Source: Yeosuana aromativorans (lineage in GTDB: Bacteria; Bacteroidota; Bacteroidia; Flavobacteriales; Flavobacteriaceae). From it: a DNA stretch of 64,000 nucleotides. The notes beneath the pieces were generated by a model that did no database searches, was not told the origin of the DNA, and was given only the letters and a program-made list of their open reading frames with translations. Position numbers and translations under genes: made by a program. Each line of letters begins with the position of its first letter. Within the stretch, counting starts at the first letter, position 1. Below, piece by piece: positions 17,009 to 29,213 of this stretch. Location of the stretch: assembly GCF_014646655.1 (NCBI RefSeq), contig NZ_BMNR01000002.1, forward strand, positions 213,942 through 277,941. Reading direction: 5' to 3'.

Positions 17009-17914
17009 ATGATAAAACGCACTCTTTTCTTTGGTAGTCCAGCCTATTTAAGTACTCGAAATGAGCAACTCGTAGTTAATTTTCCGGAGGAAGATAAAGG
17101 AGAAAAAACCATTGCTATTGAAGATTTGGGTTATGTGGTGTTGGAAGACCCCCAGATTACCATTACCAATGGCTTGTTGATGAAACTGGTGCAAAACAAA
17201 ACAGCGGTGATTACCTGCGATAGACAACATTTGCCCAACGGGTTTTTGCAACCACTGGTAGGGCATAGCGAACAGAGTGAACGCATACGCCATCAACTTA
17301 ATGCCAGTGTGCCTTTAAAAAAGCAATTGTGGCAACAAACAGTAACGGCCAAAATAGACAATCAGGCCACCCATTTTTTACAAAGAGGTAAAAATGCCTT
17401 GCGTTTAAAACGATATGCCAAAGACGTGAAAAGTGGCGATTTTAATAATGAAGAAGCTTTGGCAGCAGCGTATTATTTCCAGCATTTATTTAAAGAACAA
17501 GTACCAGAATTCAGTCGTAACCAAAAAGGTATACCACCTAACAACTTGTTAAATTACGGCTATGCCATTTTGCGTGCTGTTGCAGCCAGGGCATTGGTAA
17601 GCAGTGGGCTGTTGCCATCTGTTGGGATTTTCCATAGCAATAAATACAATGCCTTTTGTTTGGCCGATGATGTGATGGAACCTTACAGGCCTTTTGTAGA
17701 TGCCGTAGTGTATGATATGGTAGAAGATAACTTGGGATCTGTCGAAGAAATGACCACCAACCTAAAGTCTGTATTGTTGACCATTCCGGCAATGGATGTA
17801 TTATTGGATGATAAGCTAAGTCCGCTCATGAACGCAATGAGCCGCACAACAGCCAGTTTATATGACTGTTTTGAAGGAAGCAGGCGTAAAATTTTATACC
17901 CAGGCTTTCCATAA
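17009..17914 (+). CDS. cas1: CRISPR-associated integrase Cas1 (type II)
   Basis: The protein has 301 residues, as expected for type II Cas1. The metal-binding residues appear present: E149 (NNEEALAAAYYF), H209 (IFHSNKYNAF) and E224 (DDVMEPYRP). With Cas2 it forms the complex that inserts new spacers at the array. It lies 12 bases after cas9 and 13 bases before cas2, so the three genes form one operon. No csn2 or cas4 follows, which defines subtype II-C. Confidence 0.95.
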   Translation: MIKRTLFFGSPAYLSTRNEQLVVNFPEEDKGEKTIAIEDLGYVVLEDPQITITNGLLMKLVQNKTAVITCDRQHLPNGFLQPLVGHSEQSERIRHQLNASVPLKKQLWQQTVTAKIDNQATHFLQRGKNALRLKRYAKDVKSGDFNNEEALAAAYYFQHLFKEQVPEFSRNQKGIPPNNLLNYGYAILRAVAARALVSSGLLPSVGIFHSNKYNAFCLADDVMEPYRPFVDAVVYDMVEDNLGSVEEMTTNLKSVLLTIPAMDVLLDDKLSPLMNAMSRTTASLYDCFEGSRRKILYPGFP

Positions 17915-17927
17915 ATGGGAAGAAGAT

Positions 17928-18275
17928 ATGAACGAAAATCGTTTTTCTCGCTTAAACCAATACAGAAGTATGTGGATACTTGTGTTTTTTGATTTGCCAA
18001 CTGAAACCGCTACCGAAAGAAAAGTAGCTACAAAGTTTCGTAAAAACTTACTGGACGATGGCTTTGCCATGTTTCAGTTTAGTATCTATATGCGGTTTTG
18101 CGCCAGTAGGGAAAACACCGATGTGCATGTAAAGCGTACAAAAAGAACTTTGCCCAAAAAAGGGAAAATAGGTATTTTGCAGATTACAGATAGGCAATTT
18201 GGAATGATTGAACTTTTTCATGGACAAAAAGAGATAGATCCCGAAACACCAAGCCAACAATTGGAGCTTTTTTAG
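17928..18275 (+). CDS. cas2: CRISPR-associated protein Cas2
   Basis: The start was set at ATG 17928 (115 residues), because the upstream extension to 17862 lies inside cas1 and would be out of character for Cas2; the sequence GAAGA precedes this ATG. The ferredoxin-like fold starts with WILVFFDLPTET, the usual Cas2 beta-strand with conserved Asp, and ends with the acidic tail typical of type II Cas2. It is the structural partner of Cas1 in spacer acquisition. Confidence 0.93.
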   Translation: MNENRFSRLNQYRSMWILVFFDLPTETATERKVATKFRKNLLDDGFAMFQFSIYMRFCASRENTDVHVKRTKRTLPKKGKIGILQITDRQFGMIELFHGQKEIDPETPSQQLELF

Positions 18276-18281
18276 AATTTC

Positions 18282-18308
18282 GTGATGCTGAATTTATTTC
18301 AGCATCAC
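18282..18308 (+). terminator. Hairpin at the end of the cas operon
   Basis: A perfect 11-bp inverted repeat, GTGATGCTGAA (18282-18292) and TTCAGCATCAC (18298-18308), starts 6 bases after the cas2 stop. No strong T-run follows, so it may act as a terminator or an mRNA-stabilising end. Confidence 0.55.
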
Positions 18309-18394
18309 ATAAAGCAATTGCATTTAAAAAATCAAGGTAAGTAAATTAGAAAATCCAAAGGTTAATGGATTTAGTGCATTCTAACAGATTTTTT

Positions 18395-18433
18395 AAAAAA
18401 CAGGATACCAGTCTTTTACAACAAGTATCCTGT
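18395..18433 (-). terminator. Terminator of the CRISPR array transcript (crRNA strand)
   Basis: Read on the minus strand, ACAGGATAC (18433-18425) pairs with GTATCCTGT (18408-18400) around a 16-base loop and is followed by a T-run (18399-18395). The first stem half is built partly from the last bases of the terminal repeat. This places the end of crRNA transcription on the cas2 side and confirms that the array is read opposite to the cas genes. Confidence 0.7.
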
Positions 18434-21400
18434 GAATTCTCCATAAATTTAAAGAACTGAAAGCAATTCACAACCGTCAAGCCCTACCATTGTTTTAATA
18501 GCCGCCTGTGAATTCTCCATAAATTTAAAGAACTGAAAGCAATTCACAACTTGAACTCAACGTCCGCGTCTACGGTTACTCCTGTGAATTCTCCATAAAT
18601 TTAAAGAACTGAAAGCAATTCACAACAACAAATGCAGAAGGTGTTTCCCATGCTGACCTGTGAATTCTCCATAAATTTAAAGAACTGAAAGCAATTCACA
18701 ACTACAGTGGAAAGAGCAACATAAAAATGAAGCCTGTGAATTCTCCATAAATTTAAAGAACTGAAAGCAATTCACAACTTTTGCCGAATATGGCACACTT
18801 CAACCAAACCTGTGAATTCTCCATAAATTTAAAGAACTGAAAGCAATTCACAACATGATATCATATAGTTTAAAAATTCTATATCCTGTGAATTCTCCAT
18901 AAATTTAAAGAACTGAAAGCAATTCACAACTGCATAATCTTTCTACTTTACTACTTATTGCCTGTGAATTCTCCATAAATTTAAAGAACTGAAAGCAATT
19001 CACAACTTATGCCTAAAAGTGCTTATCAACAAGGTGCCTGTGAATTCTCCATAAATTTAAAGAACTGAAAGCAATTCACAACAAAATAGCATCCTTTAAA
19101 AAGTGTAGTTCCCCTGTGAATTCTCCATAAATTTAAAGAACTGAAAGCAATTCACAACAACAGGGCTATCATCTACATCACCAACAGACCTGTGAATTCT
19201 CCATAAATTTAAAGAACTGAAAGCAATTCACAACTATAGACCATGTAGGCCTTGGTCTGCTTTTCCTGTGAATTCTCCATAAATTTAAAGAACTGAAAGC
19301 AATTCACAACTAGTGATAGACGTTTGGTATTATGCCCACGCCTGTGAATTCTCCATAAATTTAAAGAACTGAAAGCAATTCACAACTATAGATGAGTTTT
19401 TAGAGAACTTGCCTTCCCTGTGAATTCTCCATAAATTTAAAGAACTGAAAGCAATTCACAACACCTTAGATGTGCTTAAACAGTCAAGGACTCCTGTGAA
19501 TTCTCCATAAATTTAAAGAACTGAAAGCAATTCACAACAATTAAAATATTGACACCTTTTGAAACACCCTGTGAATTCTCCATAAATTTAAAGAACTGAA
19601 AGCAATTCACAACAGTATTAAGTTCAGGCAATACATCACCATCCCTGTGAATTCTCCATAAATTTAAAGAACTGAAAGCAATTCACAACTTGTGCCTTAA
19701 CGATCTCCTCTACTTTTTTCCTGTGAATTCTCCATAAATTTAAAGAACTGAAAGCAATTCACAACAACTTGGTATCAACTATGTCTGATACTTCTCCTGT
19801 GAATTCTCCATAAATTTAAAGAACTGAAAGCAATTCACAACTGATAAAATACAGAGCCTTACGGCTGATGACCTGTGAATTCTCCATAAATTTAAAGAAC
19901 TGAAAGCAATTCACAACAATCGTTTCCATATATAGATACCAGCACTTCCTGTGAATTCTCCATAAATTTAAAGAACTGAAAGCAATTCACAACTGTTCCT
20001 CAAAAATCAAGGCTTCTAGCAAACCTGTGAATTCTCCATAAATTTAAAGAACTGAAAGCAATTCACAACCTGCTGATGGACTTGTAAAGTCAGCCGCAGC
20101 CTGTGAATTCTCCATAAATTTAAAGAACTGAAAGCAATTCACAACCTGTGGCATTGTGCCTTTCTTGTGATTTCGCCTGTGAATTCTCCATAAATTTAAA
20201 GAACTGAAAGCAATTCACAACAGGCTTGGCAATTTGCCTTTTTTACAATCTCCTGTGAATTCTCCATAAATTTAAAGAACTGAAAGCAATTCACAACATG
20301 AATTTAAAGCATTGACCACTTCTTTCACTTGTGAATTCTCCATAAATTTAAAGAACTGAAAGCAATTCACAACCTAGCTTACTTTTTTCTGATTCAAGCA
20401 TATCCTGTGAATTCTCCATAAATTTAAAGAACTGAAAGCAATTCACAACATGTGCAACTTTCCAAACGTGGTAAATCAACCTGTGAATTCTCCATAAATT
20501 TAAAGAACTGAAAGCAATTCACAACTAGGGTTTTATTATCAAAAATACCTTTACCCTGTGAATTCTCCATAAATTTAAAGAACTGAAAGCAATTCACAAC
20601 AAATTGAGGTACCCTATAGCATTGGACGGATACCTGTGAATTCTCCATAAATTTAAAGAACTGAAAGCAATTCACAACTAAGTATAAAAATATCAAAACT
20701 ACCATTAACCTGTGAATTCTCCATAAATTTAAAGAACTGAAAGCAATTCACAACTAAACATGACCAAATCACCATCTTTATTTACCTGTGAATTCTCCAT
20801 AAATTTAAAGAACTGAAAGCAATTCACAACTGATTTGTTACGATTTGATTCCTGTGAATTCTCCATAAATTTAAAGAACTGAAAGCAATTCACAACATTC
20901 CATTCGTCACTCAAAAAAGGGTCATACCTGTGAATTCTCCATAAATTTAAAGAACTGAAAGCAATTCACAACAATGGACTGGAGTGTCTTACCAAGGCCT
21001 TGCCTGTGAATTCTCCATAAATTTAAAGAACTGAAAGCAATTCACAACGGGGTCTGGTCATTTTGGTACATGGGCAAACCTGTGAATTCTCCATAAATTT
21101 AAAGAACTGAAAGCAATTCACAACTTATTTGATCAATTAAGGATCTTGATTTTCCCTGTGAATTCTCCATAAATTTAAAGAACTGAAAGCAATTCACAAC
21201 TACAGCCACAAAGCTTAAAAGCAACGCCTCCTGTGAATTCTCCATAAATTTAAAGAACTGAAAGCAATTCACAACCTGGTGTAATCGTCATTAAAAACAT
21301 GTGGCCCTGTGAATTCTCCATAAATTTAAAGAACTGAAAGCAATTCACAACTATCTTAATTATTTAATGTAAACTTCAAGACCTGTGAATTCTCCATAAA

Positions 21401-21795
21401 TTTAAAGAACTGAAAGCAATTCACAACACCAATAAATTTGTAACAGCCACTGATGTCCTGTGAATTCTCCATAAATTTAAAGAACTGAAAGCAATTCACA
21501 ACGCGTTTGGTCTTTAATATTGGTTTATATTCCCTGTGAATTCTCCATAAATTTAAAGAACTGAAAGCAATTCACAACTAAGCCCTCTACGTCTATCTTC
21601 ACCGTTAACCTGTGAATTCTCCATAAATTTAAAGAACTGAAAGCAATTCACAACAAAAAAGCCGTTCAAGAGTTCATTGATTTACCTGTGAATTCTCCAT
21701 AAATTTAAAGAACTGAAAGCAATTCACAACATACTGTTAATACTTTGTATGTACATTTGTCCTGTGAATTCTCCATAAATTTAAAGAACTGAAAG
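18429..21795 (-). CRISPR. Type II-C CRISPR array, 45 repeats and 44 spacers
   Basis: A 46-bp repeat recurs with a 76-bp period. On the crRNA (minus) strand it begins GTTGTGAATTGC and ends GAATTCACAGG. Forty-four repeats are full length; the last one on the right (21761-21795) keeps only 35 bases and lacks the GTTGTG end. One repeat has a base change (20329, C to T on the plus strand). Of the 44 spacers, 38 are 30 bases, four are 29, one is 32 (20601-20632) and one only 20 (20831-20850). Each full repeat contains TTG at repeat positions 2-4 and TAAATTTA at 24-31 (19-base spacing), a near-consensus promoter that would start transcription near the repeat end, as described for other II-C systems. 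The orientation is supported by the anti-repeat of the tracrRNA and the terminator at 18395-18433. Confidence 0.98.
21761..21795 (-). repeat. Truncated terminal CRISPR repeat
   Basis: The last repeat matches the consensus up to GAACTGAAAG and then changes to TATAAAAAAG. It lacks 11 bases, including the TTG of the repeat promoter. Only 34 bases separate it from the integrase stop codon. Confidence 0.85.
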
Positions 21796-21829: not shown

Positions 21830-23041
21830 TTAAAAGTTAATTACCCTATCTAAAGCATCATCCGTATCTTTTTTCATAAAACTAGACTGATAGGCAATCG
21901 TAGTTGTAATAGATGAATGGCGATATAACTTTTGCAACATTTGAATTGGAATTTTATCTCCAGAAATATTTCCAAAACTATGTCGCGCTATGTGCATACT
22001 TAACTTCTTATCAATTTTCAATTTTTTAGCCACCAATTCTAACCTTCTATTAAGAGTTCTTGTTACTGTCTTTATCCTAGTTAATAACTCCTTAGAATCA
22101 TTGAAGTTCGTTCCTCTTAAATATGAAAAAATTAAGTCATTATTGGCAAGACTAGGCCCATCATTATAAAGTTTTAGTAAAGTCTCGGCCTTTTCGGGCA
22201 CTTTTAAAGAGACTACTTTTTGATTTTTATTCATCCTATACAATAGCCTACCGTCATTAAAGTCAGACTTTTTTAATTGTAAAACATCACTTACCCTTAT
22301 CCCTGCAAAATAAAAACTAATCAGCCAAACATTAACGGCATTCTGCTGTGCAACAGTTAAATCTTTAGCGTTTTCTAGCATTTTTACCTCTTCTATGGAT
22401 AAACCTACTTTGTCTGATTCTGGAATTCGAATTTGAATCTTTCCTTTTCCAAATGGATAATTATTATGCTCTGCCAAACCTTCAGAAATAGCAAGATTAT
22501 AGATTTTACGAATTAATATCATGTAGTTTACAGCTGTCCTTGGTTTTCTTTTCTCTTGATTAAGAATATAACCTTCAAAATTTTTTAATAGGAAAATTGT
22601 TATTTCCTTAAAGTGTAGCTTATCCTTACCAACAAAATTTTTAAACTTAGCAATCCTCCCCTTCTGCGTTAGGTACTGCGAGTGTTTTTCAGCACTCTTT
22701 AAATTTTCAAGATGTAAATCTGCTAAACTAAAAAAATCAATTTTATTCTTTCCTTTAACACTTTCACTTACCTGAGATGCTGAAATAAAATCTTCACTGA
22801 TTTCTGCATCCAATAACTTATCATTTGCCTCAGCAAGTTTTTTCAATATCAAACGATTTATTCTTGAAGCATTAGGATGAGACTTCTTAACCTTCTTATT
22901 TTGGTCATCCCAAAATTTTTGAGCAATATATTGACCCGTAGAAATAAATGAAGTTTTTCTGTCCTTAGTTATCCGAATTGTAATGGGGTATAAATTTTGA
23001 GAATTCCCTTTTTTCCTTAAAACTGTCTGAACTGTTGCCAT
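21830..23041 (-). CDS. Tyrosine recombinase / phage-type integrase
   Basis: The start was set at ATG 23041 (403 residues, MATVQTVLRKKG), the normal N-terminus of Bacteroidota phage-type integrases; the extension to 23086 would run through short direct repeats. An arm-binding N-terminal domain, a SAM-like core-binding domain (~100-200) and the catalytic domain are present, with R (FAGIRVSDVLQL), HIARH and RHSSITTTIAY supplying the Arg, His-x-x-Arg, His and Tyr residues. It should integrate and excise an element at the neighbouring tRNA-Met fragment. Its 3' end abuts the CRISPR array. Confidence 0.93.
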   Translation of the reverse strand: MATVQTVLRKKGNSQNLYPITIRITKDRKTSFISTGQYIAQKFWDDQNKKVKKSHPNASRINRLILKKLAEANDKLLDAEISEDFISASQVSESVKGKNKIDFFSLADLHLENLKSAEKHSQYLTQKGRIAKFKNFVGKDKLHFKEITIFLLKNFEGYILNQEKRKPRTAVNYMILIRKIYNLAISEGLAEHNNYPFGKGKIQIRIPESDKVGLSIEEVKMLENAKDLTVAQQNAVNVWLISFYFAGIRVSDVLQLKKSDFNDGRLLYRMNKNQKVVSLKVPEKAETLLKLYNDGPSLANNDLIFSYLRGTNFNDSKELLTRIKTVTRTLNRRLELVAKKLKIDKKLSMHIARHSFGNISGDKIPIQMLQKLYRHSSITTTIAYQSSFMKKDTDDALDRVINF

Positions 23042-23076
23042 ACTTTTTGTATTATTTCTAAATATACAAAAAAGTG

Positions 23077-23140
23077 GGTACAACATAGGTACAACATTTA
23101 TTGATTTTAATCGATATTAATTGATTTTAATCGATATTTA
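23077..23140. repeat. Direct repeats between integrase and att core (candidate integrase-binding sites)
   Basis: Two copies of GGTACAACAT (23077-23086 and 23088-23097) are followed by two tandem copies of a 20-base unit starting TTGATTTTAATCGATATT (23101-23120 and 23121-23140, 19 of 20 identical). Short direct repeats in this position are typical arm-type binding sites of integrative elements. Confidence 0.5.
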
Positions 23141-23203: not shown

Positions 23204-23243
23204 CATAACCCGGAGGTCGCGGGATCGTGCCCCGCTCTCGCTA
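23204..23243 (+). other. 3' half of a tRNA-Met gene (attachment-site core)
   Basis: The sequence runs from a CAT anticodon (23204-23206) through AACCCGG, the variable loop, a T-stem GCGGG/CCCGC, the acceptor strand TCTCGCT and a discriminator A. The three C after the anticodon loop are typical of initiator-type tRNA-Met. The upstream bases do not form the 5' half, and the T-loop (ATCGTGC) deviates from TTCRANY, so it is not a working tRNA. The fragment fits an att site left after integration into a tRNA 3' end. Confidence 0.7.
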
Positions 23244-23268
23244 CAAAACATAAAGTATTTAAAAACAG

Positions 23269-23375: not shown

Positions 23376-24095
23376 TTATTTTCTCATTTCTTTTACAAGT
23401 TTAATAGTAGCACTTTTAATAAAATCTTCAAGAACATCTTTTTCAACACCTTCATAAGGTTTTGTGCCATTCTTTTTGAAGAGTTTTAATTCTTTCTTAA
23501 TGTCCTTGTAAGATTTAGAAATCACACAACCATCTACACATGGGGTATAATTAAACCTATAAACCCCTGCAAATTCATTTGAATTAATTAAAACTAATTT
23601 AAACTCTACAGATGCCCCGTATTTCTTTCTGTTACCATATTTCTCAACCTTTTCATTATTATTTTTATCATAATATTTATTAGTTTGATATAATACCTGA
23701 GAATCTAATTTTGTTAACTCAATAATCAGATCTGTATCAGATTTTTCTTTTAATTTTTGATAATTAATATTATTTCCATCATTAGCGATTATTTGATTAA
23801 AAAGTTGTCTATCTTTAACAATAAATCCACTTGCAAGCAATTGGTTTTCTATAGCATTATATAAATAATCAAAGTTTTCAGATTGAAGGTCTTTTTTATC
23901 AGTTTCTGTTACTGAGTAACTTGTTTGGGGTATTCTTAAAACAACTTTTGGGCTTTTATTGTTATTTAAAAATTGTTTTAAAGATTCTGTTTTTACTATA
24001 TCATCTGGTTTTTGATAAAATTTTAGTGTTTTAGTTGATGAACAACTGAAATTAAAAGCAGCAAAAATGTATGGTATAAAAATTGATCGTTTCAT
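23376..24095 (-). CDS. Hypothetical lipoprotein
   Basis: The start was set at ATG 24095 (239 residues), because it gives a clean lipoprotein signal with Cys18 (MKRSIFIPYIFAAF, then NFSCSS). The mature part has a mixed alpha/beta pattern with a segment resembling the assembly-lipoprotein type fold (IENQLLASGFIVKDRQLFNQI, then SDTDLIIELTKLD). This alternation is seen in CsgG/LpoB-like periplasmic proteins, but I cannot assign the family. It is probably anchored in the outer membrane, facing the periplasm. Confidence 0.65.
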   Translation of the reverse strand: MKRSIFIPYIFAAFNFSCSSTKTLKFYQKPDDIVKTESLKQFLNNNKSPKVVLRIPQTSYSVTETDKKDLQSENFDYLYNAIENQLLASGFIVKDRQLFNQIIANDGNNINYQKLKEKSDTDLIIELTKLDSQVLYQTNKYYDKNNNEKVEKYGNRKKYGASVEFKLVLINSNEFAGVYRFNYTPCVDGCVISKSYKDIKKELKLFKKNGTKPYEGVEKDVLEDFIKSATIKLVKEMRK

Positions 24096-24170
24096 GGGTC
24101 TTAAATTTAAATTACAAACAAACATACTTTTAAATTAAAAAGTACCCTTACGGCTTATCGTAAAGCAAAA

Positions 24171-24197
24171 AACTCTGCACCAGAACGATGCAGAGTT
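24171..24197 (-). terminator. Terminator of the response-regulator operon
   Basis: AACTCTGCA (24171-24179) pairs with TGCAGAGTT (24189-24197). On the minus strand the stem is followed by a T-run, about 100 bases after the regulator stop codon. Confidence 0.75.
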
Positions 24198-24295
24198 CAG
24201 AATAAATCTCCCTAAGATTTAACTAATTAATAGCTTAACAAGATTACAAGAAGTTTGTGAAAAATTTTTACTGTTTTCCGTAAAGTGGACAAACT

Positions 24296-24961
24296 TTAAA
24301 TAAGCCCTAAATCTTTAGCTGTTGCAACCAAATGAATAGCATTATTGGCCTTAAAATCTATACGTAGTTTATTTAGCCTCTTTTCAATGGAGCTCAAACT
24401 ACTGGGCTTAATATTGTTTTTTGAAAAATACAGGCTAATATCGTCCTGGGAAAGTCCTTTTGACAGTTGTTCAAGCAATAGAATATCATAATCATTGATT
24501 TCTAAATCATTTGTTGGATTTAGTGCATGAGAAACTTCTGGAGATAAATACGGTATGTTTTCAAACACACTGGAAATAGCATTGGTCAGTTCAACAAGAC
24601 CTCTTCTGGTCTTGCACACATATCCGTTTATTCCATAACTTGTAATTAATGATCGAACCTTTTGTATCCTGTCCTCAATGGAATAAGCTATTATCTTCAT
24701 TTCAGGGAATTCATTTCTAATGGTTCTAATGAGCTCCTCGCCTGATCTAATCTTTTGTTCTCTCCAATCTCTCTTAAAGGAAAGATCAGTTATCAACAAT
24801 TCATATGGCACTCCATCCAACTCTGCTTTTTTAATTTTAAGGTAAGCATCATCACAATATTGCACCTGATGGATTTCTTTAATACCCAATTCACAAAGAG
24901 CGGCATGGATACCTTTGTTGATATCCTGCATATCTTCAGCTATTAAGGTTTTTGTAAACAT
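24296..24961 (-). CDS. NarL/LuxR-family response regulator
   Basis: The protein has 221 residues: receiver domain with D59 (LLITDLSF) and a LuxR-type helix-turn-helix at ~150-215 (LLLEQLSKGLSQDDISLYFS, then IEKRLNKLRIDF). The receiver carries an unusual insertion (KRDWREQKIRSGEE) after the phospho-acceptor Asp, which is common in the Bacteroidota version paired with TPR kinases. The start lies 2 bases after the kinase stop. It probably regulates the small lipopeptide gene upstream and perhaps genes nearby. Confidence 0.85.
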   Translation of the reverse strand: MFTKTLIAEDMQDINKGIHAALCELGIKEIHQVQYCDDAYLKIKKAELDGVPYELLITDLSFKRDWREQKIRSGEELIRTIRNEFPEMKIIAYSIEDRIQKVRSLITSYGINGYVCKTRRGLVELTNAISSVFENIPYLSPEVSHALNPTNDLEINDYDILLLEQLSKGLSQDDISLYFSKNNIKPSSLSSIEKRLNKLRIDFKANNAIHLVATAKDLGLI

Positions 24962-24963
24962 GA

Positions 24964-26619
24964 TTAAACAATTATATGGGCACTAAAGCCTTCATTTGCC
25001 TTAGAATCAAAAGTAATGGTTCCTTTTACAGATTCCATACGGTTTTCCGTATTATGGAGCCCATTGTTCTTGACCAAGTTGCAACCAATACCATTATCCT
25101 TGTAGGAAACTGAAATTTTGCGATTTTCTTGATTAAACTTGAGAACAACTAGTGTTGCTTTACTGTGTTTCCGCATATTGGTCATAAGTTCTTGCAAGAC
25201 CCTGTATAAAGCAAACTTCTTTGTTTCATGAAGTTGATTCCAATTTATTTTATCAATATCCCTGGTTATGATGTTTACCTTATCAGATTTGTAACTCAGC
25301 AGTAAATCTTTTAAATGGTTTCCATAGTCTTCGTGAATATCAATAATATTGTTCTCCTTGGAAATATCTCTTGTCTTGTTGTAAATCCCCTCTAAATCGT
25401 CCAAAACATCGTTAGCCACTTTTTTATTTTGTTCCAACTTGGTCATGATATTGTAGACATCATTAGCCACTTCGTCATGTACTTTTTTTGATATGCGAAC
25501 CTCTGTGTTGTAGACTTGCTGGATTTTGTCTTTTTTGTGCTTGGATTTTAGAAATATCATTGTGAAAATAAAAGCCAATGTTATTAGACCTCCTAGAGAC
25601 AAATAAAATAATTTTAAATTTTTCTGTTTCTCTCTTTCCAGTTCAGCAATTTGCAATTTATGTTCCTTTTCGGTATAATCATATTTGATCTTGGCATATT
25701 TATTCTCTTGTACTTGTCTTGCCTTAAAAATACTGTCAGTTATTTTTTTATATTCCAAGAAATGAGTGCTATCCCCAATATCCACTAAACGAGAAAGAGC
25801 ATCTTGTAAAAATGAAGCACTATTTATTGACTTAGCAATATTATACGATTTATCACCATAATACTTTGAAGATTTAAAATCATCCCTGTCCTTATAATAT
25901 TCCATTAAGTGTTTGTAACTAGCGTACATACCTTCATAATCATTATTAGTTTTCCTTATTTGCAAGGCAAGAAGCATATTCTCCAATGCTTTTGGCCTAT
26001 TCAATTTAGATTCTATAAACCCTAAGTTATCAATGGCTCTGGAAGTTTGCCTTATATCATTCTTGTTAAAACTATTTCTATAAACTTTTAAAAATTCCTC
26101 TTCAGCCAATTCATATTTGTTTTGAGAAATGTAAATTAATGCCTTATTATTATTAATTATATTTATTTCGCTTTCATTGTCGGTAAATGACAAAGCTGTA
26201 TCAAAATTCTTGATCGCAGTTTCATAATCTGATAGTTCCATATAAATACGGCCCAACTGATTATATAAACCTACCTTATGTTCATTAATACTGGGGGATT
26301 CTTTATCTTTTGACAAATATTTAAGTGTTTCGACAACCGAAACCTCACTTCCATGATAATCACCAAGTTTATACTGTATGATCGCTATTTGTCTTAAAAA
26401 GTAAATTATTGATAAGGTATCATTAGCCTTTAAACTCTCTTTTTTCTTTAAATTAAAAAATCTAAACGCATCCGATAAGTTGGAACTGTTCTTAGGATTA
26501 TTGGCCACTTGATAATAATATGACAAACTATCTTTTACCTGATAACTTCTGTTAATGTTTGCGTAGCAAAAATCAGTTTTAACAATAAAAAAGAGGAATG
26601 AAATTAAGGCTATTTTCAT
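24964..26619 (-). CDS. TPR-containing sensor histidine kinase
   Basis: The protein has 551 residues: a signal peptide (MKIALISFLFFIVKTDFCYA), about six tetratricopeptide repeats facing the periplasm (residues ~35-300), a coiled coil, one transmembrane helix (FYLSLGGLITLAFIFTMIFL, ~330-350), then a HisKA_3-like dimerisation segment (KKVHDEVANDVYN, with the phospho-acceptor His) and a HATPase domain (LQELMTNMRKHSKA, NGIGCNLVKNNGLHNTENR). It forms an operon with the regulator. TPR kinases of this family probably sense a protein or peptide partner outside the cytoplasm. Confidence 0.87.
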   Translation of the reverse strand: MKIALISFLFFIVKTDFCYANINRSYQVKDSLSYYYQVANNPKNSSNLSDAFRFFNLKKKESLKANDTLSIIYFLRQIAIIQYKLGDYHGSEVSVVETLKYLSKDKESPSINEHKVGLYNQLGRIYMELSDYETAIKNFDTALSFTDNESEINIINNNKALIYISQNKYELAEEEFLKVYRNSFNKNDIRQTSRAIDNLGFIESKLNRPKALENMLLALQIRKTNNDYEGMYASYKHLMEYYKDRDDFKSSKYYGDKSYNIAKSINSASFLQDALSRLVDIGDSTHFLEYKKITDSIFKARQVQENKYAKIKYDYTEKEHKLQIAELEREKQKNLKLFYLSLGGLITLAFIFTMIFLKSKHKKDKIQQVYNTEVRISKKVHDEVANDVYNIMTKLEQNKKVANDVLDDLEGIYNKTRDISKENNIIDIHEDYGNHLKDLLLSYKSDKVNIITRDIDKINWNQLHETKKFALYRVLQELMTNMRKHSKATLVVLKFNQENRKISVSYKDNGIGCNLVKNNGLHNTENRMESVKGTITFDSKANEGFSAHIIV

Positions 26620-26660
26620 TCCTCTAAAATACTAACTATTTTTATTTCTTAGAGATATTA

Positions 26661-26828
26661 TTATCCACCAGTTGTAGGAGGATGTGGAGGTGGTATATCT
26701 CCTCCATCACCGCAACAGTTACCATCATCTGTGGCCACCGGTATATTAACTGAAATTCCTTGAGGCGTACATGAATGTAAAGCGATATTAAGGAAAACAG
26801 TAATTATAATTAAAACTATTTTTTTCAT
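26661..26828 (-). CDS. Small lipopeptide-like protein upstream of the sensor kinase
   Basis: The start was set at ATG 26828 (55 residues), because the upstream part has no signal character. The N-terminus is a signal peptide with an imperfect lipobox (IALHSC, Cys20). The mature ~35 residues are Gly-, Pro- and Cys-rich (DDGNCCGDGGD, PPPHPPTTGG). It lies 41 bases upstream of the TPR kinase on the same strand. A signal peptide for the kinase is a possible role; this is inference from position and size only. Confidence 0.65.
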   Translation of the reverse strand: MKKIVLIIITVFLNIALHSCTPQGISVNIPVATDDGNCCGDGGDIPPPHPPTTGG

Positions 26829-26915
26829 TTTGTTTATTATTTTAAATTGGACAATAGTGTTGCAGGCCGAGTTTATTCGGATACTTTTGGTGCATTGCAA
26901 CACCTGCTTAAATCT

Positions 26916-26998
26916 GTAGAGACGTCTCTCTTTTTGTGAAGTATGGAGGACAGCTGTAGAGAAGTTTAATTACTTCCCAGAGACTAGACAACTCTACA
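26916..26998. promoter_or_regulatory. Repeated TGTAGAG sites upstream of the lipopeptide operon
   Basis: TGTAGAG occurs at 26916-26922 and 26956-26962 and in inverted form (CTCTACA) at 26992-26998, with spacing near 40 bases. A perfect 12-bp palindrome AGAGACGTCTCT lies at 26918-26929. The sites fill much of the ~370-base gap between 26829 and 27197 and could be operators of the adjacent LuxR-type regulator. No other feature is seen in this gap. Confidence 0.4.
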
Positions 26999-27197
26999 TT
27001 GCCACTCCTGTTTAGAATCAATAATCATAAATCATATTACAGATAATATGGTTGTTAATTCTGAAACAAATGAACTAAGAATTCAATGGCCAACAAGGAA
27101 ATGTAATGGAAGAGTTCTGGAAAGTTTTTGGAAAAATTATTCCTTAAATAAACCAGAGAAAATGACTAAATTAAAGCAGTAATCAAACAAGATTTTA

Positions 27198-27921
27198 ATG
27201 CATAAAAGACTAATAATAGAAGCCTTTAAAAAAGGAGAGTCAATTCGAAAAAAACTGGGGGAAAAGAAGCTTTCCTTAGTGAGCATTGCTGAAGATTTAT
27301 CTAATTACATCCTTACAGAAGAAGGGTTTTTATTAGGAGAGCGTAGTTTTCGTGATTACAAAAATGAAGCTGAAAAACTAATGGATGATGAAGTTGATAT
27401 CAATATTAAACAATATAAAGTTATCGTTGGACTGTGTCGATATTTAGGATATGACAGTTTTAAGGATTTTAATTCACTAAATGATTTAGAAAAATGATAT
27501 AGAAATCAATGTATCTAACAAGAAATCCAAGTTTCGTAATTTTCTCAAGGAGCATAAAATCACTTTAATTGTTTGTGGTTTCTTGCTCATTGGATTTGTA
27601 GTTTTTCAGTCGATAAACAGGCAGCGTTGGATGGTTTGGCAAGATGATCATTATTTAGAAGTAAGCTTTGATGCAAAAAAATACAATTTGAGACAACTCA
27701 AACTATATAATAGCGATTGCATAAAAAACTTTAAAAAAATCACACCAAACTGTGATACGAAATTTTTTAATGAAGGTGGAACTGAAAATTTATGGTATGG
27801 AAAAAACAACAATTGAGAATTAGAATATTTAAGTGCGTTGGACAAACATCCAGAAACAGGTAAAACATTAAAACCCATTACATATTACATGATAAGGACA
27901 CATATTTGCGATTCTTATTAG
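27198..27921 (+). pseudogene. Decayed gene for a one-helix membrane protein
   Basis: The first part (27198-27497, 99 residues) is a helical cytoplasmic-looking domain (KLSLVSIAEDLSNYILTEEG). It stops at TGA 27495, but the reading continues one frame over from 27490 (NDIEINVSNKKSKFRNF) into a transmembrane helix (ITLIVCGFLLIGFVVFQ) and a C-terminal domain. That frame meets a TGA at 27814-27816 and then continues in frame for 34 more codons (ELEYLSALDKHPETGKTLK) to a TAG at 27919-27921. One extra A in the A5 run near 27490 and one nonsense change would explain this, so the gene is probably inactive. Two separate short genes are the alternative. Confidence 0.6.
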
Positions 27922-28166: not shown

Positions 28167-29213
28167 ATGGGAAAGTTAAAAGATACTTTAAGGAACACTA
28201 TAAACTCTTTGAATGACTTTAGGTACCATGACATACATAGAAAAACAGCAATGGGACTTCTTGAAAAGATTGAAAAAGAGCGAGGTAAAACCAATACCAA
28301 GTATATTAAATCAGCAAAAGATTATGCAAAGGAGGTTTTGGGCAGCAAAAAATATGCTCCTTGGTTATACGTCTACAGTGCGATTGCAGGTAAGTTTAAA
28401 GAAGGTTGGATTCCTGATAATTACTATGGAAAGATTGTGATTCCCAAAATGACAGGGGATTATAACCTAAGTGAAAGGAATAAAATAACCGATTTGCTCT
28501 TGAATCCCTCCAAATCAATTGATTTAGCCTATTATATCAATAACTTGTTTTGGGACACCAATAACAAATCTATTGATGAAAAACATATCATTGAACAGTT
28601 ATTCAAAAAAAATCAAACTATTGTATACAAAATTGAAAACTCTCTACAAGGAGGTGGTGTGTTTTTTTTCGATCGAGAAAATTTCAAGATCGATAAAATA
28701 AAAGCCTTGGGCAATGGTGTATTCCAAAGTTTCATTAAACAACATAACTTTTTCTCTGAATTTTCTGAGCGTTCTGTGGCCACCTTACGCCTAACTTCCA
28801 TTTGTAACAACTCTGGTAACATTGAAGTCAAAGCTTCATTTCTGAGATTGGGCAGAAACAATGATACACATGTAAAATCAATTTCAGCCATAAAAATACC
28901 AGTTGACATTAAAAATGGAGAACTTTCCAAATATGGCTATTATACTGATTGGACCACTACAGAACTCCATCCTGACAGCAAAATCACTTTTGCCAATAAA
29001 AAAATACCCTTTTTTGAACAATGTCTTTCAGAAGTAACCAGAATGCACAATCGCATCCCCTATGTAAGAAGTATTGGCTGGGATGTGATTGTGGATGAAA
29101 CCAACAATTTTCAACTAATTGAATGGAACGCAGGACACAACGACATCAAGTTCACCGAAGCCACCCAAGGACCTTGTTTCAAAGACTTACATTGGGAAAA
29201 GTTGAGATTTTAA
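28167..29213 (+). CDS. ATP-grasp protein of the sugar-transfer type
   Basis: The protein has 348 residues. It shows an ATP-grasp pattern close to the sugar-transfer-associated family: a glycine-rich segment (SLQGGGVFFF), an arginine-rich strand (SVATLRLTSI), and the C-terminal IGWDVIVDETNNFQLIEWNAGH with Glu and Asn as likely metal ligands. ATP-grasp enzymes join a carboxylate to an amine or similar group via acyl phosphate. The substrate is unknown; relatives are usually in polysaccharide clusters, yet none is visible here, so the gene is isolated. No signal peptide is present. Confidence 0.65.
   Translation: MGKLKDTLRNTINSLNDFRYHDIHRKTAMGLLEKIEKERGKTNTKYIKSAKDYAKEVLGSKKYAPWLYVYSAIAGKFKEGWIPDNYYGKIVIPKMTGDYNLSERNKITDLLLNPSKSIDLAYYINNLFWDTNNKSIDEKHIIEQLFKKNQTIVYKIENSLQGGGVFFFDRENFKIDKIKALGNGVFQSFIKQHNFFSEFSERSVATLRLTSICNNSGNIEVKASFLRLGRNNDTHVKSISAIKIPVDIKNGELSKYGYYTDWTTTELHPDSKITFANKKIPFFEQCLSEVTRMHNRIPYVRSIGWDVIVDETNNFQLIEWNAGHNDIKFTEATQGPCFKDLHWEKLRF

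Follow-up and report, generated by a model that had tools for sequence, protein, structure and literature searches.

We analyzed a 64,000-nt stretch of DNA from the flavobacterium Yeosuana aromativorans (assembly GCF_014646655.1, contig NZ_BMNR01000002.1, positions 213,942 to 277,941), hereafter the window, for a cluster in which a small peptide gene precedes genes for a tetratricopeptide repeat (TPR) histidine kinase and a response regulator. A sequence-only reading had described these three genes as a peptide-signaling, pheromone-like cassette. The trio is real: the 55-aa peptide, the kinase, and the regulator are all encoded on the minus strand, with exactly 41 nt between the peptide stop and the kinase start. 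That reading had overlooked a structured RNA, a set of phased repeats, and a divergent regulator (named C0), all of which are conserved with the peptide.

The Peptide Gene

The predicted small exported lipopeptide (26661..26828, stop codon included, minus strand) has a hydrophobic start running into LHSC and then a tail rich in Gly, Cys, and Pro, as had been seen in its translation. The gene appears to be kept by purifying selection: compared with the ortholog in the nearest relative (55 codons), the nonsynonymous rate (dN) is 0.090 and the synonymous rate (dS) is 0.355, a ratio of about 0.25, as such selection predicts. Of 99 genomes, 12 (the window's own among them) contain homologs at E < 0.02, mostly placed directly before kinases related to that of the window. 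Nine peptides, gathered by similarity to the window peptide only, were made into a profile; searched against 397 genomes of the family, it gave matches in 222 at E ≤ 0.01, many of them weak. A chance open reading frame (ORF) is ruled out by the homologs, the profile matches, and the dN/dS ratio.

We compared loci in three sets. The peptide-chosen set comprises 80 regions, namely the best 77 profile places besides the window's own, two from genome G001, and one from G027. The kinase-chosen set comprises 80 named loci picked by the kinase alone. The RNA-chosen set comprises 22 matches of the leader-RNA model R1 (see below) in wider, mutually overlapping genome samples of the order and the phylum, fetched by RNA alone.

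All 80 peptides of the peptide-chosen set, like the window peptide, carry a lipobox-like Cys behind the hydrophobic start, and their tails fall into two types, CCG[DE]..PPPP and LYxxxATEGDDG..PP. The label lipopeptide holds for these peptides and fails for 7 of the 21 found behind RNA-chosen matches (six in the sister family f5, one in f1), where the lipobox is missing. What the RNA-chosen peptides have in common is a hydrophobic start, a Gly/Asp-rich stretch, and a Pro-containing end. The lipobox is not universal, and lipopeptide character is not essential to the module.

Two other TPR kinases of the same genome (L002 and L003, on contig C3) have small lipopeptide genes of their own upstream (profile E values 3.9e-8 and 3.8e-5). 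Neither has an R1-type RNA; R1 matches this genome once. Because of these two additional cases, pairs of a small lipopeptide and a TPR kinase may be a wider theme.

The Predicted Leader RNA and Promoter-Like Element

By k-mer count, the whole intergenic region between C0 and the peptide is unexpectedly conserved. The part nearest the peptide is a predicted structured leader RNA of ∼236 nt with two pseudoknots (26830..27065, minus strand), which ends next to the peptide ATG and was delineated by a covariance model, covariation, and folding. It is preceded by a promoter-like element, TTCATTTGT (27066..27074, minus strand), which resembles the Bacteroidota −7 box TAnnTTTG, a consensus taken from PMC9723704.

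We drew the RNA structure manually on A7, a trimmed alignment of 29 leaders, and counted it afterward, obtaining ten helices, two pseudoknots, and 67 pairs; one of the pseudoknots joins GGGAAGU to ACUUCCC. A7 consists of the window and 28 of the 80 peptide-chosen regions, hand-picked with outlying leaders omitted, so that its percentages describe the better-aligned rows. Pairing was kept in 81.5% of 1,876 cells, compared with 73.5 ± 0.5% after shuffling and 40–48% with slid partners. Changes on both sides occurred in 51 of 67 pairs and 183 cells, whereas shuffling gave 34.7 and 71.5. RNAalifold, run on the untrimmed version (A6), returned only 10 pairs. The excess of GU (150 cells) over CA/AC (98 cells) favors the peptide strand for the RNA, and the single-sequence fold of the window leader scored z = −4.31 against shuffles on that strand and −3.18 on the opposite one.

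The covariance model R1 was built from the nested part of this structure and contains no pseudoknot helices. It scored the window leader, itself one of the model's rows, at 207.4 bits and matched 53 of 56 sources, some of them model rows including the window (misses at L113, L117, and L138). On a second alignment of 46 matches, which shares some organisms with the R1 rows and is thus not fully independent, the pseudoknot helices showed 48 double-change cells against 23.8 ± 3.7 in shuffles. Two other, weaker measures on this alignment were less clear: the number of pairs changed on both sides was reached in 22 of 500 shuffles, and that of pair types in 59 of 500.

A conserved structure with compensatory changes thus lies before an ORF on the same strand, as in a structured cis-leader. 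The element is like the structured leaders and riboswitches of Rfam in its conserved fold before a coding region, its covariation, and its pseudoknots; it differs in that no Rfam 15 family matched the leader of the window or of eight further loci, at gathering score or at E ≤ 5. Transcription attenuation by the GAGAGACGUCUC hairpin was considered and rejected, since no consistent T tract stands behind the hairpin.

The Kinase and the Response Regulator

The kinase (551 aa; 24964..26619, minus strand) is assigned from Pfam, a structure model, and fold comparison as a TPR sensor histidine kinase with a signal peptide, a TPR superhelix, a transmembrane (TM) segment, and a histidine-kinase core. 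The window protein matches TPR_1 (5.6e-9) and, under Pfam's cutoff, HATPase_c (2.2e-4); for the kinase family there are also UhpB/LiaS-type matches, and H381 is invariant. The structure model [predicted local distance difference test (pLDDT) 85] shows an N-terminal signal, a superhelix at residues 31–280, and a long helix with a TM stretch, a topology that would place the TPR part in the periplasm.

The earlier reading had called this domain peptide binding in type. Its fold indeed superposes on RapI (Z 22.5), NprR (21.0), and, at about 20, Rap proteins with bound peptide; the score for LGN is higher still (23.5), and likeness of fold does not by itself demonstrate peptide binding. All 49 kinases compared have Asn at positions 158 and 198, 46 keep Asn120, and 45 keep Asn157, with residues 120, 158, and 198 spaced like successive repeats. 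In other TPR proteins, Asn ladders hold peptide backbones. The conserved Asn residues and the modeled fold would fit the peptide tail as ligand without proving binding.

The regulator (221 aa; 24296..24961, minus strand) is of the NarL/RcsB type. The window protein has a receiver-domain match (2.3e-7), and D10, D59, and K117 are invariant in its family, whose profile matches solved RcsB-, VraR-, and NarL-type structures and extends into the C-terminal helix–turn–helix (HTH) domain; with VraR, the match reaches position 205 of the 221-position profile. LuxR-type, the label used previously, is therefore a fair one. As in two-component systems of the NarL type, an ATPase-domain histidine kinase here adjoins a receiver-HTH regulator.

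C0 and Its Candidate Operator

C0 (27198..27921, plus strand) is predicted from family comparison and the model of a relative's copy to be a divergent, membrane-tethered, HTH-like regulator. Of the 80 peptide-chosen regions, 77 have C0 upstream of the peptide, always on the opposite strand and 160–399 nt away. We found no Pfam family and no PDB sequence match for it. The model of the nearest relative's copy (pLDDT 93.5) shows an N-terminal domain of five helices, followed by a TM-like helix and a C-terminal α/β domain. Most of the 50 fold rows shown for the N-terminal domain are HTH folds of the XRE/λ-repressor type; the part behind the TM helix had no outstanding match in the comparison lists, which shows nothing either way. 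The window's copy of C0 is disrupted: its frame changes near 27490–27497, and it contains an internal stop. The nearest relative, UBA6231 (L146), has an intact C0 and a kinase frame interrupted after 438 codons, whereas the window kinase is intact. If these are not assembly errors, the modules appear to be decaying in the window's group, with opposite parts affected in close relatives.

Four TTCC words (three TTTCC and one CTTCC; 27097..27134, minus strand) with 11-bp spacing, read from the sequence and its autocorrelation, form a candidate C0 operator. Across loci, self-likeness at lag 11 between positions −345 and −245 reached z = 20.0 in 58 CC-type peptide regions and 10.3 in 23 regions of the other type, with further peaks at lags 22 and 33. 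The repeat word is TTTCC-like or TGTC-like depending on the locus. Within the putative recognition helix of C0, position 53 (L144 numbering) carries Arg or Lys at all 13 TGTC loci and at none of the 40 TTCC loci. It is the sole perfect column among 990 (220 of C0, 221 of the regulator, and 549 of the kinase), the next-best values being 0.85 in C0 and 0.72 in the kinase. The response regulator is less likely to bind the repeats, its best column having a phi of 0.70 vs. 1.00 for C0. On a C0 tree built without the recognition helix, three word changes and three residue changes are needed. We regard the association of residue 53 with the operator as strong but not conclusive.

Eight loci with no clear repeat word (L098, L100, L101, L105, L109, L133, L134, and L141) have a quite different C0 N-terminal part; the DNA-binding end seems to have been swapped there.

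Co-occurrence of the Parts

The trio recurs in relatives, with a kinase of the same family directly downstream of the peptide in 69 of 80 peptide-chosen regions (66 by filter plus L074, L077, and the contig-cut L091). Starting from the kinase, the small gene is found in front in 44 of 80 loci (in L175 only as a remnant, E 0.5) and is missing from 36. Because of these 36 bare loci, the peptide is not a fixed partner of every kinase in the family. Organisms with a module in this set include Flavivirga aquatica, Maribacter arcticus, and Flavobacterium suaedae. C0 accompanies 43 of the 44 peptide-bearing loci (exception L148) and stands before none of the bare kinases. R1 likewise matches directly before 42 of the 44 (not at L181 or at L175's near copy) and before 0 of the 36; its further matches in this set are copies elsewhere in L175, L195, and L198 and a weak one on the opposite strand in L219. 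The peptide label changes at least 20 times on the kinase tree, and 14 of these changes are forced by starred branches. Taken with the co-presence of C0, the label changes indicate that peptide and C0 are gained or lost as a unit beside a kinase–regulator pair able to stand alone.

The same dependence is seen across genomes. R1 was found in 42 of 149 family genomes, in 27 of 196 of the order sample (20 in the window's family and 7 in f5), and in 17 of 247 of the phylum sample, all in the window's family. The kinase profile (E ≤ 1e-70) matched 60 of the 149 family genomes, which divide into 41 with RNA and kinase, 1 with RNA only, 19 with kinase only, and 88 with neither (Fisher 8e-21). In the RNA-only genome (G157), the contig ends inside the kinase; one kinase-only genome (G159) has a weak RNA match. 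All five genomes with two RNAs carry two kinases. In 11 regions, the peptide has no kinase directly behind it, and each of the 10 genomes checked (G371 not among them) holds exactly one kinase (E ≤ 1e-60), close by in three and elsewhere in seven. This one-way dependence of RNA and peptide on the kinase is the best genetic argument that they act through it.

Fetching by RNA alone led to the same arrangement. In 21 of the 22 RNA-chosen loci, a small ORF of 50–80 aa starts −7 to +4 nt from the RNA end; a kinase is present in 21, C0 in 18, and a regulator in 17. The one locus that departs, L279, has the weakest of the matches (E 0.0018), possibly a false positive.

Genomic Neighborhood

Behind the regulator stands an intrinsic-terminator-like stem with a T tail (24170..24198, minus strand, read from sequence) and then a possible lipoprotein gene with no Pfam family (23376–24125, minus strand), with apparent relatives behind the regulator at a small number of further loci (cluster 21, judged by eye). 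A Bacteroidota-type tyrosine recombinase (21830–23086) lies beside an apparent tRNA 3′ end at about 23205–23245, a possible attachment site; ARAGORN found no complete tRNA. Further along (17862–21500) are a short cas2-like gene (by eye) and a long, regularly spaced repeat array, a CRISPR array beside the integrase. On the other side of the module, a gene for a sugar-transfer-associated ATP-grasp protein (Pfam 3e-26) occupies 28167–29213 (plus strand).

At other loci (L066–L145), the regulator is followed by variable islands with TerB-like, DUF6804, DUF4236, YidD, Excalibur, and HNH genes. The recurrent genes among 80 loci encode a TerB-like protein (in 25) and a 421-aa protein (in 24). An assignment of these neighbors to UmuDC was dropped, as the 134-aa ORF shows a weak likeness to TerB and the 421-aa ORF belongs to no clear family. 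On plasmids and viral contigs, the module gave no match; in one of these searches 183 stretches fit a pattern, and none was a relative.

Discussion

We favor, with moderate confidence, a five-part signaling module in which the TPR kinase senses an exported peptide whose synthesis is controlled by a structured leader and a membrane-tethered regulator. The parts and their order, the RNA structure, the co-inheritance, and the match between C0 and operator are supported by the genome comparisons; from them we infer the membrane topology, the transcription start, the direction of RNA control, the peptide–TPR binding, the phosphotransfer, the output genes, and the peptide's leaving the cell. C0, crossing the membrane once, with its XRE-like HTH in the cytoplasm and its other domain outside, would bind the four repeats, spaced one helical turn apart, and control the promoter between its own gene and the peptide. 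Transcription toward the peptide would start just behind the TTCATTTG box and yield the ∼236-nt leader with its two pseudoknots, ending at the peptide start codon, which would act in cis to set the output of peptide, kinase, and regulator. The peptide would be exported, as a lipoprotein in most lineages, and its Gly/Asp- and Pro-rich tail would be the ligand of the kinase's periplasmic superhelix, with the TPR Asn residues holding it in extended form. The kinase would then phosphorylate the NarL-type regulator. The earlier proposal of a peptide-signaling cassette is supported in part: the check that it named, recurrence of the trio in relatives, came out in its favor, and RNA/peptide modules hardly ever lack the kinase. 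Not every kinase of the family has the peptide, and use as a pheromone between cells is unproven.

Several observations weigh against this scheme. Bare kinases among the 49 compared keep the same Asn residues, and TPR superhelices resemble one another, so that the likeness to Rap and NprR is not specific to peptide binding, as the higher score of LGN illustrates. The N terminus of the f5 peptides has no positive charges, making Sec export doubtful there. Neither peptide nor C0 precedes 36 of the 80 kinase-chosen loci, and 19 of 60 kinase genomes have no RNA; either the kinase functions independently of the module, or it has inputs besides the peptide. For C0, the likeness to HTH folds is weak (highest Z 5.6, across 65 residues), the well-supported branches of its tree force only one word change, the residue–word pattern was spotted by eye before it was counted, and 27 of 80 regions have no assignable repeat word.

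The main rival, which we consider unlikely but a serious competitor, is that the small lipoprotein is a periplasmic accessory reporting the state of the envelope: it would activate or restrain the kinase encoded with it in response to lipoprotein traffic or the condition of the envelope, with RNA and C0 keeping the lipoprotein at the right level. NlpE acts in this way for CpxA, as does RcsF for the Rcs system. The lipobox-like Cys throughout the first set would suit such a role, as would the RcsB match of the regulator's family profile, the possibility that C0 itself senses the periplasm, and the apparent lack, on inspection by eye, of a surface-export motif behind the Cys. Against it, the six f5 loci and one f1 locus lack the lipobox while keeping the rest of the module, and the peptides diverge fast in length and tail.

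It is rather improbable that the RNA is the main actor, either processed to a trans-acting small RNA or serving as a ligand-sensing riboswitch, with peptide, kinase, and regulator as downstream genes serving the same signal. A 236-nt element with two pseudoknots is elaborate for a leader, its nucleotide sequence is strongly conserved, and structured small RNAs of flavobacteria, such as Rfp18, alter protease mRNAs according to PMC9723704. Nevertheless, the RNA 3′ end adjoins the peptide ATG in all but one of the fetched matches, the RNA is found only together with the kinase, and the GAGAGACGUCUC hairpin is followed by no consistent T-rich terminator. We hold it very improbable that the module is a selfish or defense-linked cassette, a mobile unit guarding or regulating the adjacent variable islands: TerB-like and associated genes do lie downstream more often at module than at bare loci (cluster 3, 10 of 44 vs. 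1 of 36, p 0.019; cluster 4, 9 of 44 vs. 0 of 36), the module is repeatedly gained or lost, and its parts are broken in the window genome and its relative, but the neighboring genes vary, PADLOC matched none of C0, peptide, kinase, and regulator, PHROGs matched none of C0, peptide, and kinase, and no kinase relative was found on plasmids (1e-20) or viral contigs.

The module proposed here, that of a peptide sensed by the kinase, resembles several known systems in part. Like the RRNPP systems of Bacillota (Rap-Phr, NprR-NprX, and PlcR-PapR), it has a gene for a small exported propeptide directly adjoining that of a TPR receptor, and the TPR domains superpose well. It differs in that the TPR domain sits on a membrane histidine kinase, is predicted to lie outside the cytoplasm, occurs in Gram-negative flavobacteria, and comes with a structured RNA and C0. 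The survey of PMC10075063 covered complete genomes of Firmicutes and viruses and receptors of 250–500 aa. We do not file the module as RRNPP because its receptor, rather than being an intracellular protein in that size range, is a 551-aa kinase with an N-terminal signal and a TM segment.

The peptide-sensing two-component systems Agr and ComDE likewise encode peptide, kinase, and regulator together, and their sensor domains are polytopic membrane domains instead of TPRs. Neither is known to have a comparable leader RNA or a tethered HTH regulator. C0 has the predicted layout of ToxR-like one-component regulators, with a cytoplasmic DNA-binding domain, one TM segment, a periplasmic domain, and a gene adjoining the target promoter, except that its N terminus resembles an XRE/λ-repressor HTH, not a winged HTH. 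Within the phylum, FimS/FimR of Porphyromonas gingivalis also pairs a histidine kinase bearing a periplasmic TPR sensor with a response regulator, and the excerpts of PMC5706477 mention no small peptide, RNA, or C0 for it. The NCBIfam FimS model matched a kinase of our family (L144, used as query in place of the window kinase) at 6.4e-7 and 28 bits, far below its cutoff of 600, so the kinase is not a FimS equivalog.

We recognized no prior description of the peptide/kinase/RNA/C0 module in a literature search limited to open-licence papers. The module could be a new Gram-negative device, an idea that we put forward more tentatively than the signaling scheme: a fast-evolving exported peptide, a periplasmic TPR kinase, a pseudoknotted leader outside Rfam, and a tethered regulator co-evolved with a phased operator, with RNA, peptide, and tethered regulator gained or lost as a unit beside a stand-alone kinase–regulator pair. 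It brings an RNA outside the Rfam families and a protein family, C0, with no Pfam match, and its natural series of operators and regulators predicts a switch of DNA specificity at one residue. Each of these claims is testable in culturable flavobacteria. Peptide signaling, familiar from Bacillota, is little known in Bacteroidota; the module would be a candidate for it in more than one-quarter of the sampled genomes of the family, going by the RNA, and in a sister family.

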